NCBI RefSeq assembly: GCF_000317555.1 | Contig: NC_019745.1 | Coordinates: 2,480,001 to 2,544,000, forward strand | From: Gloeocapsa sp. PCC 7428 | GTDB lineage: Bacteria > Cyanobacteriota > Cyanobacteriia > Cyanobacteriales > Chroococcidiopsidaceae | Direction of reading: 5' to 3' | Length of the DNA: 64,000 nucleotides | Shown: one piece after another, positions 5,514 through 16,727 of the stretch | Numbering within the stretch: position 1 is the first letter of the stretch | How the letters are laid out: each line of letters starts with the position of its first letter | Position numbers and translations under genes: made by a program | The notes under the pieces: model-generated | What the model saw: the letters and a program-made list of their open reading frames with translations, nothing else | Told to the model about the DNA's origin: nothing | Database searches by the model: none

Positions 5514-8108
5514 TCACTCGCGGGACATCTGTAATTCATGTGCGATATCTACTGGTAAGCAAACTGTAAAGCAGCTACCGCGTCCTAGTTCGGAAGTCAC
5601 AGTGATATCTCCTCCGTGTAACCGTGCTAATTTACGCGATAGTGCTAAGCCTAAGCCCGTACCTTCGTATTTACGATTTAAGCCACTATCAAGCTGCTGA
5701 AACGGTTGAAATAAATTAGGTAAATCTTCAGCAGCAATACCAATTCCAGTATCAATAACAGCAAACATAATGTGGTTTGAATTCTTACTAACTTGAAGTA
5801 GGACTTGTCCTTTGGGAGTAAATTTTACTGCATTATTGAGCAGGTTAAATAAGATTTGTTTAAGGCGGCGCTTATCTGCAACACAAATTGCTGCTTCTGG
5901 GTGAATAACTAAAGAAAATACTAATTCTTTTTTTTGCCCTTTTTCTTGAACAAGCGATATGCATTCTTGGCAAATATCTTCAACAATCAATTTTTCTAGG
6001 GCTAATTCTTCTTTTCCTGCCTCAATTTTTGATAGGTCAAGAAGATCGTTGATTAAATCTAATAAATGTTGTCCAGAAGAATGAATCAGCGCGATGTATT
6101 GTTGTTGCTTCTCGTTGAGTTCTCCAAAGATTTGCTTGAGTAAAAGATTAGAGAAACCAATAATTCCTGTTAGCGGCGTTCGCAGTTCGTGACTCATATT
6201 TGCCAAGAAGTCAGTTTTGGCGCGATCCGCAGCTTCTGAAAGTAGTTTTTCCTGTTCGAGTTCTTGCGTCCGTTCTTTAACTAGCTGCTCTAAGCGTTCG
6301 TAACTTTGGGCATTATAAAGCGCGATCGCTGCTTGATTCGCGATGCGTTGTAAAAGCTGAATTTCCTCTGGAGTAAAAGTTCGCTGCGTCGTCGTTGTCT
6401 GTAATGATAATCCGCCAAAGAACTGATCGCGGATAAAAATTGGTACGCGCAATTCCGACCGCATTTGTGCTTGTTGAACGATAGGCTTTCGCTTGGGATC
6501 GATTTTAATTTTTGCGAAATCGGGGACGTGAAAAACTTGATAGTAAGAAGCGAAATACGTAGGATTTAGTAATTCTATATGTTCGGATAGAGGAACTTGC
6601 AAGTGTAATATGGAAATAATTGCTAAGCTTTTTCTCCATTCTTTCACAACACGAATATGCGTTGTATCGATTGCAAAAATGATCACGCGATCAACACCAA
6701 ATCCTTGACCTGTGAGGTTCACAATTTCTTGCAAAATATGTTCGGGATCGAGGCTAGAATTGAGCGATTGGCTGATATTGTTGAGCAAGTGTTCGCGTGC
6801 AGCTTGTTGTTGCACTTGGTTAAAAAGTTGCGCTTGTTGAATTGCGATCGCAACCTGTGTGGCCAACTTCTCAATCAAATCAATTTCGCTAAGTTGCCAT
6901 TGTCGCGATCGCGAACATTGATGTACTGCGAGTAACCCCCAAGCGTAGTCACCTTGTAAAATCGGAACAACTAACCGCGCTTTAACGTGCAATCGTTGCA
7001 ATAGTTGAGCAAATTGAGGATTAAGATTGGCGATCGCAACGTCATCAATTGATTGAACGCAGCCGCGCTGACATTCTGCTTGAGTTTCTTGCAACCAAGT
7101 GCCATGTATTTTAATCTCAGGATCGAAAGGCCAATTAGCATCTACAGATTCGGCAACAATTTTGCCATGACGATTATCTGCAAAGCGAAAGATCATGACG
7201 CGATCCGCGTGTAAAAATTGCCGAACTTCTGCAACCGTCGTACTGAGAATTTCATCTAAGTTGAGTGATTGACGAATTCGCGTCGCAATGGCACTGAGTA
7301 AGCGATCGCGTTCGGCTTGTTGCTGAACTTGAATTTCGACTTGCTTGCGGGCAGTAATATTGCGGATAATACCTTCAATCGCCGCTAAAGTACCATTATC
7401 GTAAATCGTGACGTTGCTTTGCTCTGTCCAGATAACCTTCCCATCTTTACAAATCCAACGCAGCATTAACGGTTGAGGCATTTCGCCATCAAGCGATCGC
7501 TGCCATAGCGACTGATCGTCAGGATGCACAATTTGTGAGATTAACGCAGGATTAGCATAATACTCTTGCGGTGTATAACCTGTAATTTTAGTAACAGCAG
7601 GACTAATATAATCAAAGCCTGGAGTCGGCTCAAAGCGATAGCGGTAAATGATATCTTGGGCGTTGTCCGCCAAGCGACGGAAGCGTTCTTCACTCGCTTG
7701 TAACGCAATTTCGGCTTGGCGCTTTTGATCGCGGAGATTTTTTTGGTCAACAGCTTGTTTAATCGCCTCACCTAAGCGAACTAAACGATCTTTTAATAAG
7801 TAATCTGCTGCACCCTGCTTCATGCACTCGACGGCAACTTCTTCACTGACGCTACCTGTAACAACAATAAAGGGAATATCTAATTTTTGTTGCTGCAATA
7901 ACTGCAAAGCTTGTAGCGCACTAAATTGTGGCATTCCGTAATCAGAGAGAATCACATCCCACGGTTGATTTAAGCACGCGCGGTAATCATCTTCGGTTTC
8001 GATACGTTGCCATTCAGGTTCAATACCACAAGTACGCAATTCGTACAGCATCAGTTCTGTATCACTCACCGAATCCTCTAAAATTAAAACCCGCAACAAA
8101 GTGGACAT
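5514..8108 (-). CDS. REC-PAS-GAF-GAF sensor histidine kinase
   Basis: 864-aa soluble kinase, last gene of a three-gene operon; its ATG lies 10 bp after the preceding response regulator. Domains in order: receiver at ~5-120 (phospho-acceptor D56 in L-S-D-Y-G-M-P), PAS at ~140-255, GAF1 at ~268-428, GAF2 at ~438-600, HisKA with H640 (M-S-H-E-L-R-T-P-L) and HATPase_c (D-T-G-I-G-I and G-T-G-L-G-L) to the end. GAF1 resembles a cyanobacteriochrome GAF ([22 protein letters not shown]), but Gln365-Phe366 stands where bilin-binding domains have Cys-His, so covalent chromophore attachment looks lost. The N-terminal receiver could take phosphate from the kinase encoded upstream. No membrane segments. 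Confidence 0.92.
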
Positions 8109-8118
8109 AATCGTTTTT

Positions 8119-8562
8119 TTAAGATACCGGAGGTTGATTCAGCAGCCGCCAATACAAGCCTAATTGTCGTACAGCCTCCGTGAACTGCTCAAAGTCCACT
8201 GGTTTGACGATGTAGCTATTGACTCCTAACTGATAACTGTCAACGATGTCGCGTTCTTCGCGCGAAGATGTCAGAACCACAACAGGAATAATGCGCGTGC
8301 GAGGATCGGATTTAATTTTTTGCAGAACTTCTAAGCCGTCAACTTTTGGTAGTTTAAGGTCGAGGAGAATCACCCTAGGTTCATCATCCATCGAGCGATG
8401 TGCATAATTGCCAGTACAAAAAATAAAGTCGAGTGCTTCTGCACCATCACGGACTACCTCAATATGATTTGTGAGGTTACTACTTTTAAGTGAATGAAGC
8501 GTCAGTTCTGCATCACACGGATTATCTTCAACAAGCAAAATTTCCACCGCACTATCTCGCAT
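8119..8562 (-). CDS. Rcp1-type single-domain response regulator
   Basis: 147-aa stand-alone receiver, like the response regulators (Rcp1 type) that partner cyanobacterial phytochrome kinases. It shows the acidic pair in I-L-L-V-E-D-N, the phospho-acceptor in I-L-L-D-L-K-L-P, the conserved Thr/Ser in V-V-V-L-T-S-S and the Lys in I-V-K-P-V-D. The [11 protein letters not shown] segment and a C-terminal Y-W-R-L-L-N-Q-P-P are characteristic of this subgroup. The frame is open up to 8637, but a GAGG at the end of the upstream kinase gene lies 8 nt before the ATG at 8562. That makes 8562 the likely start, 10 bp after the kinase stop. It probably relays phosphate from the MHYT-GAF kinase, but the output target is not visible here. 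Confidence 0.88.
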
Positions 8563-8572
8563 CAACATCGCC

Positions 8573-10993
8573 TCACAAAGTAAAGTAGAAAGTTGCACCG
8601 CGATCGACTTGTGCTTCTGCCCAAACACGTCCGCCATGACGATGGATAATCCGCTGCACGATCGCTAAGCCGACACCTGTTCCCTCGTATTCTTCTGCAC
8701 GGTGCAACCGCTGGAAAACACCAAAAAGTTTATGCGCGTATTGCATATCAAAACCTACGCCATTGTCTTTGACGAAGTAGACGTGATGTCCCATGTTATC
8801 TTGTTGACAACCGATCGTAATGTGCGCAGCGGTGTTTTTGTGCGTATATTTCAATGCGTTTGATAGTAAATTCATCCAGACTTGCTTCATGAGTGCTGGA
8901 TCGGCTTCACACGCTGCTAGCGCTTCGATTGTGATTTCAACGTGCCGATTTTTTTGCTCCTCGGCTAAATCGATTAATACTTGACGCACGATCGCACTCG
9001 GTTCAACGCGTTGTTTTTTTAAGGGCGCGCGACTCAATCGCGAAAATGTCAGCAGATCGTCAATTAAGCATCCCATTTGTTGCGCGTTAGCTTGTACCAA
9101 TTGCAAATAACGTTGCGCCTCTGGAGTTAATTGCGCTGTGCAATCTTTTAAGAGAATCCGCGAAAAGCCATGGATCGCGCGTAAAGGGGCGCGGAGATCG
9201 TGCGATACCGAATACGAAAAGGCTTCTAGTTCTTTGTTGGCTAATTCAAGTTCCGCCGCGCGATTTTGCAAGTCGGCGTTGAGATAGCTAATTTCGGCTT
9301 CAGCGCGTTTGCGTTCAGCGAGTTCGGTTTGTGCTTGTTGGTAAAGTTCAGATTGTTGAATGGCGATCGCGAGTTGTGTTGCGAGTTGCTGAAGAAGATT
9401 GATTTCGATCAGTTGCCATTGGCGCGGTTTTGAACAATGATTAGCAACGAGTAATCCCCACAGTTGTTCTTCTTTTAAAATTGAGACGACTAAGTTGGCG
9501 CGCACCTCTAACTGTGCGAGTAGATCGGCATGACAAGGATTTAATCTGGCAGTGTAAATATCATCTACGACTTGAATTCTGCCTTGTCGATATAATTCGC
9601 GGTTCCCAGGATGGCTAAAAAAAGTATCTTTGATATTCTTGCCAGCAATCGAATTCCATTCAGGGGCTACCGATTCGACAACAACGATTCCACTCCAATC
9701 TGGCTCAAAGCGATAAATAAACACGCGCTCGGTTTGCAGAAACTGCCGCACTTCGGCGACAGTCGTGTTTAAAATTGTCGTCAAATCCAGTGACTGGCGG
9801 ATACGTCGTGTAATTTCCGCAACTAATAACTCGCGTTCGGTTTGCTGTAACTGAAATTTTGCCGCTTGGATGCGTTCGGTGATATCGCGATAAGTTGTGA
9901 CAATGCCTGCAACGGCTGGATCGTGCAGGAGATTATTGACAATCACTTCAAAATCTCGGACTTGTCCGCGTGCAGTACGTAAGCGAAATTCAGCAGAGAT
10001 ATTGACATTTGGATAATTTTTTGCTTTATCGAGAAGAGCAGCAGCGATCGCTTGGTCTTCCTGAAGAACAAAATCAAAAGTATGCTGCCATGCATCAGGT
10101 TCATAACCCAAGATGCGTTTAATCGAGGCGCTGGTGTAATTGACACGACCATTCGCAGCAATGACTGCAATAATATCCGAGGCATTTTGCACCAAAGAAC
10201 GAAAGCGTTCCTCGCTTTGACGTAACGCCTCAGCGCGCGCTGTTTCTGCAAGGAGTCGCTGATCGAACGTCGAAGACACAAGCGCAAGCATCAAGACAAC
10301 TAATGTCGCGATCGCAATCGCAATTCCCAGCAACGTGTTATCGATCGCTGGTGCTGGATTTTTGAGCAACTGTTGATTGTGCCTAAAACTCACTGCTGCC
10401 ATCGCGGTGTAATGCATTCCGGCGATCGCAAACCCCATGACAATCGCGCCACCGACTTGCCATTGACCTTGGGCTGTTGTCGCTTTTTGCAAGCGAAATG
10501 CCAATTGCAGTGCGACTAAAGAAGCACCGATCGCGATTGCCAGCGACAGCACAACTAACTTGGGATCGTATTCTGGAGTTGCAGCGAGGCGCATCGCTGC
10601 CATACCTGTGTAGTGCATCGCGGCGATACTTAACCCCATCACACTTCCGCCAGCAATCAGTTGCGGTAAGCCGAATTCACGACTGACGACCAATAAAGCA
10701 ATCCCAGAAGCAACGATCGCGACTCCCATCGAGAGCAAAACCAGCGGCAGGTCATAATGAATCGCAACGGGGAGGTTGTAAGCCAGCATCGCGATAAAGT
10801 GCATTGCCCAAATACCGATGCCCATAGCGATCGCGCCGCCACTTAACCAAAGTTTGCGAATTCGTCCAACCGCAACGGTAACGCGTCCAGATAAGCTTAA
10901 TGCAGTGTAAGAAGCAACAATCGCGATCGCAATCGACAGGAAGACAAGTCCTAGATCGTGATGGGATAACAATACATCAGTATCAGATATCAT
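8573..10993 (-). CDS. MHYT-PAS-GAF histidine kinase with cyanobacteriochrome-type bilin-binding GAF
   Basis: 806 aa from the ATG at 10993, which has an AGGAG/CAGGT upstream; the frame extends to a TTG at 11032 without a better site. Residues ~10-240 form a seven-helix MHYT domain with M-H-F, M-H-Y and M-H-Y motifs at about 64, 126 and 193; this is a membrane sensor type proposed in the literature to bind a metal and sense gases. A PAS domain (~260-375) and a GAF domain (~387-549) follow, then HisKA with H598 ([10 protein letters not shown]) and HATPase_c. The GAF has N-P-C487-H488, the bilin-attachment motif of cyanobacteriochromes, plus Y-R-F-E-P-D-W-S-G and V-V-D-D-I-Y. In the DXCF register it reads D456-T-F-F, so the second cysteine is absent. 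First gene of an operon with an Rcp1-type regulator and a second kinase. Photochemistry is inferred, not shown. Confidence 0.9.
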
Positions 10994-11112: not shown

Positions 11113-14100
11113 CTAGCTTAAAACAGCAATCACGCCACCCATCGCGGCTGCAATTGCTGAAACAACCGCAGTTGCAAACAGCCACCAAGCTGCACTTCCT
11201 GCCGCCTTGCGGGTTTCTTCCGCTTGTCGTTGCGCTTGAATCCTTACTTGTTCGAGCCGGCGTTGTGCTTCTTGTTGAACGCGTTCTGCACGTTGCAGCA
11301 CGTTGTTCCGCGCTCCTTCGATTTGGTCAATGATCCGGTTAGCATCGGCTTCCGAAATATCCTCGCGCGAACTCATAATCGCGACAAGCGTTTCGCGGTT
11401 AAACGAACCTAAGCGATCGCGAATCGCTTCAAAACCCGCTTGCGGATCGTCAAACAGCTTACGTACATCCTTTTTGATGCCATCGTAGTTGAGTTCGGGA
11501 CGATCGAGCGAATTCAAGTAATTGCGGATTCTGCCAAAAACGCCATCAATGACGTCTTGAATGCGGCGTTGAATTGCCCGTACTTGTTCTACGAATTGAT
11601 CGCGTACCGCCAGAACTTGATCGACAGTGCGCGCCGCTTCTTCTTCCGACATATCACCGCGCGCTTGTAGAAGTGCGATAATCGTCGAACGGTCAAAGTG
11701 TGATAGGCGATCGCTTAAACTTTCTACCCCTGCGCGCGGATCGTTGAGCAACAGGTTCAATTCGCGCTTAATCGCTTCAGGATTCAATTCGTCTTTACCT
11801 GTGCTGCGTAAATAATCTTCCAAGGTTTGTTGGAAGTTCTGTACACTTGCTTGCGTACGTGCTGCCAAGCGGCGCGGCGCACGAATAATGTCGCGAATCG
11901 AAACTTGAACTTGGTCGATAATTTGATTTACTTGGTCTTCGCTTAAGTCTTGGCGTTGACTCAACAGCTTCACCAACGTATCGCGATCGACCTGTGCAAG
12001 CCGTCGTCTGAGTGCAGCAGCACCTTCTTGCGGATTATCAAACAAACGCGCAAAGTCGCGCTGAATGCCTTCGGGATTGAGTGCTTCTTTCCCTGTGTTC
12101 CGCAAATATTCGGCGATCGTCTGCGTTACCGAATCGTACTGCTCTTTGGCTTTGCCTGCAATCATTTGCGGCGCGTGCGTAATGTCGTGCCACGTTCCTT
12201 CAACTTGATTCAGAATTTGGTTAATCTGCTCTTCGGATAAGTCATCACGCTGATTCAACAGCTGAACTAGCGTATCGCGGTTAAAACGCGATAACCGTGC
12301 TTGAACTGCGGCAGTTCCAGCTTGCGGATCTTCCAGCAGTTTTTGCAAATCGCGCTTGATTCCTTCCGGATTAAGTTCGTCTTTACCAGTATTACGCAGA
12401 TAAGACTCTAAATTAATCCACAGCGTTTCCGCTTGTTGTTTGGCTTGATCCGCAACGTTTTGCGACTCGAATAAAACTTGCTGGCGTACTTCTTCCACTC
12501 CATTAAGGATCGTTTCTGCTTCCTCTGGTGTGATGTCGTTACGTTGTAGCAAAATTTGTCTTAACGAACCGCGTTCTAACCGTGCCAGGCGTAATGTAAG
12601 TAATTCGTGATCTGCTTCGTCATCCTCTAACAAGGGCTTGAAATCTTGCTGCATTTTTTCAGGCGTCAGATCTGCCTTACTTGTTACGAGTAGATAACTT
12701 TCGACACGTCGCTGTAACTCTTGAACCGCTTCGCGTTCTTCTTCGGCTCGCACAACCGTCAAAACTTCTTGCCGAATGCTTTCTAGCTGATCGGCAATTT
12801 CTTGAATTTTGGCTTGCGTAAAGACACCGCGTTGTTGTAGTAGATCGACAAAATCCTGTCGCGAAATCTGCTCAAGCTGACGCCGCACGGTTCCTGGATC
12901 GGCGGCTGGATCGTACAAAACGTCACGAAATTCTTGATTAACTTTTTCGCGGTTAATTTGCCAAGAATATGTATTTAGCAAGTAGTTTTCGACATCTGCG
13001 CGAATCGTATTGTACGGTACAGCAGCACTTTTTATTCCTACTTGCTCGGCAACCTTTTCAGCTTGATCTGTTGCTTTATCTCGTGCTTGCGAAAGCGAAC
13101 TCAATATCTTCTCAACATCCAAGTCTGAAAGATCCGCTCGACCCATCACAAGCCCCATCAAGGTTGTCAAACCTTGCTGAAGCGACATGGGGATAGGTCC
13201 TCCTCCAGTATTGGAGTCTTGCTTTCCCTTGCCCGAACGTACTTCTGCAATCAGCTGGTCTACCTTGGCGCTTAATTCGTCCGTTTTGGCTTGCCCAGGT
13301 TGTACCGACTTGAGGTAGTCTATCAACTCACCCATACGGTCTTTTTGGGGTGCTTGCTGCGATACGACTTGTCGCCAGACACTTTCGAGTTGATCGACGA
13401 TGCGATTAATATCGCGCCGTGAAAGATCAGTACGACTGCTGACTAACTCTACAAATTTCTGGCGATCGATGTTCCGCAGATCTTCGGTACCCGCAATTTC
13501 TTTTAGCTGCGGATCGTTCAACAGATTTTCAAATTCCTTACGGATATTGGACAAGTTCAATTCGGGAGGACGAAGCGTGTCCAAATAATCTTCGATGTTT
13601 TCCCGAATTGTCATTGGGTCGATCGCGCTACCGAGTTCGCGACGTACCGCCGCCGCCGCTGCTTCAGCTGTGGCTACGACTTGGTTATTAACCGCCTTCG
13701 CCCCCAATGCAGCTGTTGCTGTACCAATAATTGCTTGCAATCCTGATGTTGCGGTATTGACAACTGAGCCGACTAGGGAACCTACAGTAGTGGAACTAAA
13801 CCAAAACAGGAGTAAAAAATATGCTCCCCAAATGACAAGTCCTAGAATCGCGCCTAGTCCTACGTCTAGCGTTAACAAGCTTAGCTTCACTGCCAAAAGA
13901 CAAGCAATGAACAAAGCAACACTAACTGTGACTAGTGTCCAAATTCCTACCGCAGTACCAATCTTACGAATCGTTCCTCCTACACTACCACCATCACTAC
14001 TCGATGAGTCTGAGTCTGAATCTGAGGAACGCCCTAAGAAAGAAATGCCAGCAGCAACCGAGAGGTTTGTTAACACCAACTGAATGGCAAAGGCAAGAAT

Positions 14101-14250
14101 AATACCAGAAATTAAAGCAACAAAGAATCTCGGTCCTGAGAAAACTAGTGCTGCTTCGGCTGGCGTTACCGCCCCTGGAGTGACTGGCACCTGCGCTATC
14201 CAAAATAGCGCTTGGTGTGGCTCCAGTAGTATTTCCGTATTCTCAAACAT
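11113..14250 (-). CDS. Membrane protein with seven and a half tandem ~80-residue helical repeats
   Basis: 1045 aa. Transmembrane helices lie near residues 42-60, 99-120 and 130-155, with a Ser/Asp-rich linker between the first two, and one at the extreme C-terminus (~1020-1043). Between them seven related units start near residues 215, 415, 512, 611, 709, 806 and 904. Each has the form Y-L-R-x-T-G-K-x-E-L-N-P-E-x-I-K-R-x, a D-P-Q-A-G turn, R-L-x-x-F-x-R-x-T-L-V-x-L-L, then R-x-D-L-S-E-E-x-x-N-x-I-x-x-Q-V. A second-half-only copy lies at ~361-393. The last five units are the most alike, suggesting recent duplication. AAGGG before the ATG at 14250 supports the start. Similar cyanobacterial proteins are sometimes labelled transporter, but nothing here shows transport. 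A scaffold or membrane-tethering role is speculation; function unknown. Confidence 0.85.
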   Translation of the reverse strand: MFENTEILLEPHQALFWIAQVPVTPGAVTPAEAALVFSGPRFFVALISGIILAFAIQLVLTNLSVAAGISFLGRSSDSDSDSSSSDGGSVGGTIRKIGTAVGIWTLVTVSVALFIACLLAVKLSLLTLDVGLGAILGLVIWGAYFLLLFWFSSTTVGSLVGSVVNTATSGLQAIIGTATAALGAKAVNNQVVATAEAAAAAVRRELGSAIDPMTIRENIEDYLDTLRPPELNLSNIRKEFENLLNDPQLKEIAGTEDLRNIDRQKFVELVSSRTDLSRRDINRIVDQLESVWRQVVSQQAPQKDRMGELIDYLKSVQPGQAKTDELSAKVDQLIAEVRSGKGKQDSNTGGGPIPMSLQQGLTTLMGLVMGRADLSDLDVEKILSSLSQARDKATDQAEKVAEQVGIKSAAVPYNTIRADVENYLLNTYSWQINREKVNQEFRDVLYDPAADPGTVRRQLEQISRQDFVDLLQQRGVFTQAKIQEIADQLESIRQEVLTVVRAEEEREAVQELQRRVESYLLVTSKADLTPEKMQQDFKPLLEDDEADHELLTLRLARLERGSLRQILLQRNDITPEEAETILNGVEEVRQQVLFESQNVADQAKQQAETLWINLESYLRNTGKDELNPEGIKRDLQKLLEDPQAGTAAVQARLSRFNRDTLVQLLNQRDDLSEEQINQILNQVEGTWHDITHAPQMIAGKAKEQYDSVTQTIAEYLRNTGKEALNPEGIQRDFARLFDNPQEGAAALRRRLAQVDRDTLVKLLSQRQDLSEDQVNQIIDQVQVSIRDIIRAPRRLAARTQASVQNFQQTLEDYLRSTGKDELNPEAIKRELNLLLNDPRAGVESLSDRLSHFDRSTIIALLQARGDMSEEEAARTVDQVLAVRDQFVEQVRAIQRRIQDVIDGVFGRIRNYLNSLDRPELNYDGIKKDVRKLFDDPQAGFEAIRDRLGSFNRETLVAIMSSREDISEADANRIIDQIEGARNNVLQRAERVQQEAQRRLEQVRIQAQRQAEETRKAAGSAAWWLFATAVVSAIAAAMGGVIAVLS

Positions 14251-15230: not shown

Positions 15231-16727
15231 TCAGATATCAGCTGATGGGATAAAAACTTCGGATGTAAAGCTACCATGTAATCCATAAGGAACATGATGC
15301 TTGAGGTGGAGACGCGCGATCGCACCTTGCTCTAAATTACGCGCATCTAAAATCACGATATCCGAACGATGGTACGTTGCATCGTAGACTAACGCCAATA
15401 TCCAGCCATCATCTTCGCTTTCACCGCCAGGGCGTTCTACAAAAATTGGTTCGCTGATAAAGCCGCGTGGTGCAGCACTCCACAATTGTCGCTGTCCTGA
15501 TTCTAAATCAACCTTGAGAATTGCTTGCAATGGCGCATTTCCAGTCGCCGCGTGCGCTGCACCCATATACAAGTAACGACAAGCACGCCCGACTTTTTCA
15601 GGGTGCATCGTGGGAAACTCACAACAGCGTGGTTCAATTAATCCTCGCGATACTGTCTTCTGCTGCAAGTTGACATGAAAGCGCCACATCTGTCCTGGTT
15701 TAAGTGCATCAAAATCAACTTGTTTGAAATCACTTCCGGCTTCAACTTCAGGAAAAGATTCATAACAAATCGAGTCAATGAAAATTTCATCACCTTGCTC
15801 AAACGCATTCGCATGATGAAAGACAAAACCAGATCGCGTTTCTAAAATTTGTACTTGTCGCGATTTATGTCGACCAATCACAACAATGCGGGTAGGTTGA
15901 TTTGGGAGAAACTTGATACATTCTCCCGCACCGCGCAAACCTAAAACAAAAGGAATTGGATTAAATGCGATCGGGTTTTGAAAGAAGATGCAGTAATTTT
16001 CAGTGATAGCAAAATCGTGAATAAAGGCGAATCCAGGAACATTGTGCGCGTGTTGGCGAATCACGTTACCCGCTGGATCTAATTCAAAAATCGTAATTGT
16101 CGAAGACAAACCAGGCTTAATCGAGAAGTTGACCATGCACGGTGCGCCACCATCCTGATTACACCTCGGATCAATTCGCGGATGTGCAGCAAAAGCTTCG
16201 CCATCAGCTAAAACACCGTTGAGTGAGTCTTTACCCAAAGTTTCCAGCGTTACCGGATCGAGGCGGTGGGGATCAGCGGCTTCCCATAATGCTAGAAGTT
16301 TACTGCCCCAGTAGACAACGTTGGTATTGGCGATATTTTTCAATCGCAGATCGAAAGCGTTTGCTAGCCAACCACCAGGCTTTTGCGTACCAAAAACACC
16401 ACGATAGAGAATTTTGCCAGCTTTTTGTTCTTCTATGAACGCAGTAGTACGGATGAAACGATTACGGAAGTGCGCGCGACCATCTTTAAAGGCGATCGCA
16501 CTAATCATGCCATCACCATCAAACGGATGATGAATTGGAGTACCATTAATATCTAATAACGCTGGACCATTGCGGAACAAAGTTCCTTGCAATTCTGGCG
16601 GAATTTGCCCCTCAATGTCGTCAATCCAGTAATCGTATTCAGTTTTGAGTGATTCATATCCTCCTTGCCAATCCTGGCGTTGATAGGAGTGTGTAGGAAC
16701 TGTAGATGCGCGTTCGTGAAGTTGCAT
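15231..16727 (-). CDS. Carotenoid cleavage oxygenase (apocarotenoid-15,15'-oxygenase type)
   Basis: 498 aa, the full length of this family. These non-haem Fe(II) enzymes fold as a seven-bladed beta-propeller and cleave a conjugated double bond of (apo)carotenoids with O2; the Synechocystis enzyme makes retinal from apocarotenals. The four iron-ligand histidines are present at H182 (A-A-H-P-R), H237 (F-I-H-D-F), H304 (V-F-H-H-A-N) and H484 (G-L-H-G-S-F), almost the same numbering I recall for the Synechocystis ACO. The N-terminal G-T-L-F-R-N-G-P and H-H-P-F-D-G-D-G-M motifs are also typical. It probably acts at the membrane surface. It is 40 bp downstream of the transporter gene on the same strand, so they may share a transcript. 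The exact substrate cannot be read from sequence. Confidence 0.92.
   Translation of the reverse strand: MQLHERASTVPTHSYQRQDWQGGYESLKTEYDYWIDDIEGQIPPELQGTLFRNGPALLDINGTPIHHPFDGDGMISAIAFKDGRAHFRNRFIRTTAFIEEQKAGKILYRGVFGTQKPGGWLANAFDLRLKNIANTNVVYWGSKLLALWEAADPHRLDPVTLETLGKDSLNGVLADGEAFAAHPRIDPRCNQDGGAPCMVNFSIKPGLSSTITIFELDPAGNVIRQHAHNVPGFAFIHDFAITENYCIFFQNPIAFNPIPFVLGLRGAGECIKFLPNQPTRIVVIGRHKSRQVQILETRSGFVFHHANAFEQGDEIFIDSICYESFPEVEAGSDFKQVDFDALKPGQMWRFHVNLQQKTVSRGLIEPRCCEFPTMHPEKVGRACRYLYMGAAHAATGNAPLQAILKVDLESGQRQLWSAAPRGFISEPIFVERPGGESEDDGWILALVYDATYHRSDIVILDARNLEQGAIARLHLKHHVPYGLHGSFTSEVFIPSADI

Follow-up and report, generated by a model that had tools for sequence, protein, structure and literature searches.

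The locus at positions 8573-10993 of the complementary strand raises the question of whether one protein can read both light and gas. It lies in the window analysed here, a stretch of 64,000 nucleotides from the genome of Gloeocapsa sp. PCC 7428 (5.88 Mb, 5 contigs), and encodes a sensor histidine kinase in which an MHYT membrane domain is followed by PAS, cyanobacteriochrome (CBCR)-type GAF, HisKA and HATPase domains. We consider it likely that the product is a membrane-bound multi-sensor histidine kinase with light and gas inputs. The architecture, family placement, intact motifs, conserved operon and purifying selection were observed here, and by comparison with known systems the reading of light and gas by one protein appears well founded as a hypothesis.

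Kinase gene, orthologs and selection

ORF reading gave a single uninterrupted frame with an ATG start and 806 codons plus the stop, which is included in the span (806 aa). All coordinates given below for the kinase and its operon refer to the complementary strand. The order of MHYT, PAS, GAF and HisKA-HATPase in the original prediction was borne out by Pfam, which identified MHYT in three stretches (E 1.7e-49; residues 8-235, 10289-10972, as delimited by Pfam and an AlphaFold2 model of residues 1-250), PAS (residues 262-371, 9881-10210, E 1.9e-8), GAF (residues 403-545, 9359-9787, E 7.8e-25), HisKA (residues 590-653, 9035-9226, E 1.6e-13) and HATPase_c (residues 698-806, 8576-8902, E 7.8e-23). 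By sequence, the phospho-acceptor of the HisKA domain is His598. A motif script showed that the predicted motif positions were exact: M-H-F/Y motifs starting at residues 64, 126 and 193, D456-T-F-F, and C487-H488. The YRFEPDWSG stretch was also found.

The same MHYT-PAS-GAF(Cys-His) order was then sought in 60 genomes, including that of the window and 19 of the same family. Among the matches listed, the full architecture was present in at least 6 of the 60 genomes, all from one family: the window's own genome, G004, G010 and G014 (87-90% identical), and G005 and G011 (67-68%). Among named records, the closest that carries the gene is that of Gloeocapsopsis crepidinum LEGE 06123 (89% identity), and one further copy comes from a Gloeocapsa MAG. 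The nine MHYT-motif residues and D456, F458, F459, C487 and H488 were kept in all six genomes; given the 67-68% identity of the two most distant copies, this retention exceeds what chance would leave. Judging by these sequences, the pairing of putative light and gas domains in one kinase looks real and conserved.

The kinase is under purifying selection. Of 20 domain-by-genome comparisons, 14 had an estimable dS and gave dN/dS values of 0.05-0.15, the remaining six being saturated. Against G004, G010 and G014 the values ranged from 0.049 to 0.119 across all four domains. In each of three pairs the GAF domain had the lowest value of the four (0.049-0.068, compared with 0.056-0.102 for MHYT).

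The GAF domain and its predicted colours

Sequence searches, fold searches and a tree all assign the GAF domain to the CBCR type. Its best solved relative by sequence is PPHK of Leptolyngbya sp. JSC-1 (6oap, E 5.8e-59), followed by miRFP670nano and its variants, NpR6012g4 (6bhn) and TePixJ (3vv4). From their titles, we take the structure rows 5zoh, 8k9o and 6bhn to be engineered AnPixJg2, RcaE and NpR6012g4, respectively. When an AlphaFold2 model of the domain (pLDDT 86.3, built from six sequences) was searched with Foldseek, PPHK chains occupied ranks 1-6 (best E 2.0e-23, 60% identity), and miRFP670nano came next.

The GAF tree contained 57 rows, ten of them from solved structures, and was rooted on three phytochromes; row G012 and L168 (a G004 sequence identical to L119) were omitted. 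The branch between phytochromes and the rest had a support of 100/99, with the kinase GAF on the non-phytochrome side, so that the tree places it with CBCRs, as the original prediction supposed. Since CBCR and phytochrome GAFs were sampled, its nearness to CBCRs versus ordinary GAFs rests on the searches. Both the XRG clade (five rows, 100/99) and the DXCF-type clade containing TePixJ (five rows, 100/99) excluded the kinase GAF, which formed a clade of eight rows with its orthologs (six in all), L169 and L171 (99/98). The deeper branching order among CBCR groups was without resolution.

Within the same genome, the seven next-best GAF matches were 38-50% identical over most of the domain. Five of them carry Cys-His or Cys-Tyr together with DPCF, and two are without the cysteine (the hybrid kinase described below and C1:4008282). 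Lower matches comprised a Cys-Leu GAF, a phytochrome-like GAF, GAFs at 24-32% and a short piece at 44%. One match each to PF01126 (heme oxygenase) and PF05996 (bilin reductase) was found in the genome. From family knowledge, we presume that these enzymes make phycocyanobilin, which makes a bilin supply, and thus bilin synthesis by the host, plausible.

Script and alignment located the canonical cysteine of the C-H/Y motif at C487-H488 (9530-9535), the predicted site of covalent bilin attachment. The DXCF second cysteine is absent, Phe458 occupying its site in D456-T-F-F (9617-9628), and the XRG mark WXDXXL is absent as well, the sequence reading I-K-D-T-F-F. The single-cysteine type that had been predicted is thus supported, and it could be sharpened to a DXXF motif lacking the second cysteine, with Phe425 (9719-9721), Asn518 (9440-9442) and a residue other than Trp two positions ahead of the Asp. 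According to the available excerpts, the NpR3784 group is recognized by a DXXF motif devoid of the second cysteine (PMC5578081, PMC11284453), by Val in place of the Trp of the XRG motif WXDXXL (PMC11284453) and by a Phe in the beta1 notch (PMC5240096). At these sites the kinase GAF has DTFF, Ile454 and Phe425. The substitutions F25C and N117H in miRFP670nano imply that its parent NpR3784 had Phe25 and Asn117, the latter near bilin ring D (PMC6336887, in excerpt). Counted on the alignments, these correspond to Phe425, the beta1-strand Phe of the group, and Asn518.

Phe425 and Asn518 occurred together in 14 of 75 aligned GAF rows (11 different proteins), never singly, and both were missing from the other 61, which include miRFP670nano owing to its engineering; the rows contain repeated sequences and were mostly picked by likeness to the query. 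The 11 proteins are the six orthologs, L169 and L171 with DxFF, and L183, L036 and PPHK with DxYF. At the XRG Trp site, read by motif because the alignments gap there, Ile was found in four of the six copies (including that of the window), Leu in one and Val in one, and Trp in none. A clade of the orthologs, L169, L171, L183, PPHK and miRFP670nano was absent from the tree and was not rejected when imposed as a constraint (AU p 0.367). Because the grouping was proposed after the first tree and the residues had been inspected, the assignment rests on the residues and best matches. By these, the kinase GAF fits the NpR3784 group, and it would have a single cysteine, a red-absorbing dark state and typically a red/green photocycle.

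The two closest characterized systems show what may be expected. PPHK (6oap, 6oaq, 6ob8), a phosphorylation-responsive photosensitive histidine kinase, resembles the kinase in its single cysteine, its CH motif and its equivalents of Phe425 and Asn518; it has DQYF, whereas DTFF is found here. NpR3784 of Nostoc punctiforme, the parent of miRFP670nano and prototype of this red/green CBCR group, shares with the kinase GAF, as far as the excerpted sources describe it, DXXF without the second cysteine, the beta1 Phe, Asn at the 117 site and the lack of Trp two residues before the Asp, but it carries DXYF instead of DXFF and does not form one clade with it in the tree. Since Phe458 stands where both carry Tyr, the colours may differ. 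The green photoproduct is a prediction from PPHK, whose Pg state lies at 562 nm (PMC11480761, in excerpt).

A somewhat unlikely alternative is that the GAF domain binds bilin and is not a red/green switch, Phe458 leading to another photoproduct colour, fast dark reversion or non-switching fluorescence. None of the ten solved-structure rows of the tree falls in the DxFF subclade (the six orthologs, L169 and L171), whose residue at the Phe458 site is not that of PPHK and NpR3784, and the excerpt of PMC5578081 calls the photoproducts of the NpR3784 subfamily variable. However, Phe425, Asp456, Phe459, Cys487, His488 and Asn518 all match PPHK, for which the excerpt of PMC11480761 gives a green-absorbing Pg state, which favours the red/green prediction. 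The kinase also draws attention to a DxFF subclade among the single-cysteine CBCRs.

The MHYT domain and its pairing with CBCR domains

The N-terminal domain matches PF03707 and contains three motifs, M64-H65-F66 (10796-10804), M126-H127-Y128 (10610-10618) and M193-H194-Y195 (10409-10417). Seven helices are seen in the AlphaFold2 model of residues 1-250 (pLDDT 84.7), with the motifs close to the C-terminal ends of helices 2, 4 and 6. According to this model, the three motifs probably share one side of the membrane, which would be the outside provided that the kinase end faces the cell interior, and the last helix (219-249) heads towards the PAS domain. No confident match to the model was found among solved structures (best E 0.32). 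In a 48-row MHYT alignment with records from several phyla, His65, His127, Met193 and His194 were invariant; in a 65-row alignment His65 and His194 were invariant, and His127 and Met193 nearly so. By position, the genome of the window encodes five MHYT proteins, and no CBCR GAF was found in the other four.

MHYT had been put forward as a gas or metal sensor, an idea that has since been demonstrated elsewhere: in the excerpt of PMC11347149, the MHYT domain of CoxC from Afipia carboxidovorans responds to CO, requires copper and is antagonized by O2. CoxC, like the kinase here, has an N-terminal membrane MHYT domain; its output is a DNA-binding LytTR domain in a single-component protein without a kinase or light input (PMC11347149).

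MHYT might instead be a mere membrane anchor, sensing neither gas nor copper, in a protein whose only sensor is the photoactive CBCR GAF. This is the role that the excerpt of PMC11347149 describes for CdgB, whose MHYT domain serves localisation to the membrane. Moreover, of the MHYT proteins named in the excerpted literature, CoxC alone has a direct gas response, the NO or nitrate role of NbdA and MucR having been deduced from deletion or substitution. A pure anchor would nevertheless hardly be expected to keep all nine motif residues in six of six genomes, to have H65, H127 and H194 invariant in 48 MHYT rows (H127 nearly so in 65), or to be under purifying selection about as strong as that on the GAF domain, and we regard this alternative as unlikely.

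The combination of MHYT with a CBCR GAF is not confined to this ortholog group. A phylum search with an MHYT-PAS-GAF query, in which the top 3 candidates per genome were scored, detected the architecture in at least 2 of 386 genomes (G000 and G004). Among 127 MHYT frames in the loci collected (many of them repeats), 26 also matched the CBCR GAF profile, and these collapse to the six ortholog genomes plus five or six with an XRG-like GAF: G298 (L203), G363 (L206), Tolypothrix sp. FACHB-123 (L054), Richelia sinica FACHB-800 and G124 (L073 with L208; probably one genome) and G008 (L127). Like the kinase here, they join MHYT and a CBCR GAF with the canonical cysteine in one histidine kinase; they differ in having DTYL or DTYF, then CY, and extra residues ahead of the motif, compared with DTFF and CH here. 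L127, the only one of them in the tree, was placed in the XRG clade. Among the five XRG-like kinases examined with Pfam, L073, L127 and L206 have REC and PAS domains, and both are missing from L054 and L203. From the existence of two GAF types, we infer that MHYT and CBCRs came together on two or more occasions.

Several look-alikes were set aside. The G038 match of the phylum search does not have the same architecture. G038:C90, G014:C1:2408615 and G006:C1:2786262 can be aligned over the MHYT-PAS-GAF part, but they carry GAF domains that are not CBCR-like, judged by the lack of a match to the window GAF and by Pfam. In G006 C1:278893, MHYT-PAS, a repeated linker, GAF and kinase domains follow one another; with 25 bits to PF01590, the GAF is of the ordinary sort, and the cysteine motif is absent.

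Outside the family, GAF relatives with 65-70% identity were found in L197 and L199. MHYT is absent from both kinases (L197, 1995-4898, + strand; L199, 2233-5148, + strand), and no hydropathy segment was found in L197. Their N-terminal 280 aa contain C-x-x-C and, as we presume, weakly resemble AhpD. Pfam gave nothing for this part of L197 and E 0.12 and 0.16 to unrelated families for that of L199, and the N-terminus of L197 had no match in NCBIfam. Against the PDB, L197 matched the AhpD core at E 0.087, weaker than ATP synthase subunit d at 0.021. Another redox input is possibly paired with a DxFF GAF in these two proteins.

In the open-licence literature, as far as excerpts were available, no paper was found that pairs MHYT with a cyanobacteriochrome in one protein, and in the same literature nothing was found on Gloeocapsopsis with a cyanobacteriochrome. 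Both sensor modules of the kinase are known; their combination is new, and it does not amount to a system of a new type.

Operon, partner kinase and proposed signalling

The kinase heads a three-gene operon. The second gene encodes a single-domain response regulator (8119-8637 as the longest ORF); its start is more likely at 8568 or 8562, just past the kinase stop, leaving 4 or 10 bases between them. The third gene (5514-8108) encodes a hybrid kinase of 864 aa with the Pfam order REC-PAS-GAF-GAF-HisKA-HATPase. The same order of kinase, response regulator and hybrid kinase was found in five other genomes, the hybrid kinase of G011 being incomplete at a contig end. Promoter and terminator scans were uninformative (11 and 11 versus 10.0 and 7.0 expected).

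Two further genes of the complementary strand may be recorded. At 11113-14250 lies a gene for a protein of 1045 aa in which repeated units and hydrophobic ends can be made out by eye; the gene also adjoins the kinase locus in L119, L120, L121, L129 and L214; in Pfam, Bac_DNA_binding reached 31.7 bits, over the cut-off, with no single stretch passing, and DUF2087 stayed below the cut-off. At 15231-16727, close to the photoreceptor genes, an RPE65-family carotenoid oxygenase is encoded (E 8.2e-148, Pfam).

By sequence comparison, the first GAF of the hybrid kinase (6810-7322) is CBCR-like and 43-50% identical to the kinase GAF, and it lacks both the DXCF and the canonical cysteine in all six operon copies and in G002; the window copy reads NPQF at the latter site. 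This sibling, together with the cysteine-less GAF of C1:4008282, shows how the kinase GAF might have lost bilin binding and become a structural relay or small-molecule domain, but with Cys-His and the other checked pocket residues kept in all six copies, and the lowest dN/dS of the four domains in three pairs, such a loss is very improbable.

The operon has changed in related genomes. An intact kinase was absent from both of the other genomes of the genus that were searched (G001 and G002), indicating that it is dispensable. In G002 the neighbouring genes are still in place, as is a hybrid kinase with 90% identity, but all that is left of the kinase and the regulator is a single frame of 200 codons in which the start of MHYT is joined to the end of the regulator (L214, 10693-11292, + strand). 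In G001, scattered remnants alone lie between the same neighbours. Since the remnants differ, the sensor was probably lost twice. G006 has the same gene order with the cysteine on the other side: the GAF of its MHYT kinase is ordinary and without Cys, and the hybrid partner has a CBCR GAF with DSCF and CY. In the seven intact operons read, a cysteine-bearing CBCR GAF was found in one kinase or the other, never in both (the second GAF of the partner was inspected for cysteine in the window copy only).

Family knowledge suggests how the preferred light-and-gas kinase could work, with respect to bilin, copper and gas binding, colours, phosphotransfer partners and the integration of inputs. All three Met-His-Tyr/Phe motifs of the seven-helix MHYT domain would face the same side of the membrane, probably the outside, and the copper that the domain probably holds would bind a diatomic gas (O2, CO or NO). 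Because the last MHYT helix would lead into the PAS-GAF-kinase chain, both inputs could bear on autophosphorylation of His598. From there the phosphate would pass to the regulator encoded at 8119-8637, and the hybrid kinase (5514-8108) might also accept it through its receiver. PPHK, too, is a histidine kinase with two inputs, one of them through a CBCR GAF; the second is a phosphorylation signal, by its name and the BeF3- bound in 6oaq, whereas here it would be the membrane MHYT domain.

A more speculative extension, which we hold to be quite improbable, is a coincidence detector for light colour and for a gas linked to the photosynthesis or pigment metabolism of the cell itself: its red/green GAF would read the photosynthetic light field and its MHYT copper photosynthetic O2 or the CO from heme oxygenase, with the light input having changed places between the operon's two kinases in the course of evolution. 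Heme oxygenase releases CO while making bilin, the pigment that the GAF would carry.

For the light-and-gas kinase itself, both halves are experimentally anchored, the GAF domain by PPHK and NpR3784 and the MHYT domain by CoxC, and the integration of light and gas in one kinase would therefore be directly testable.
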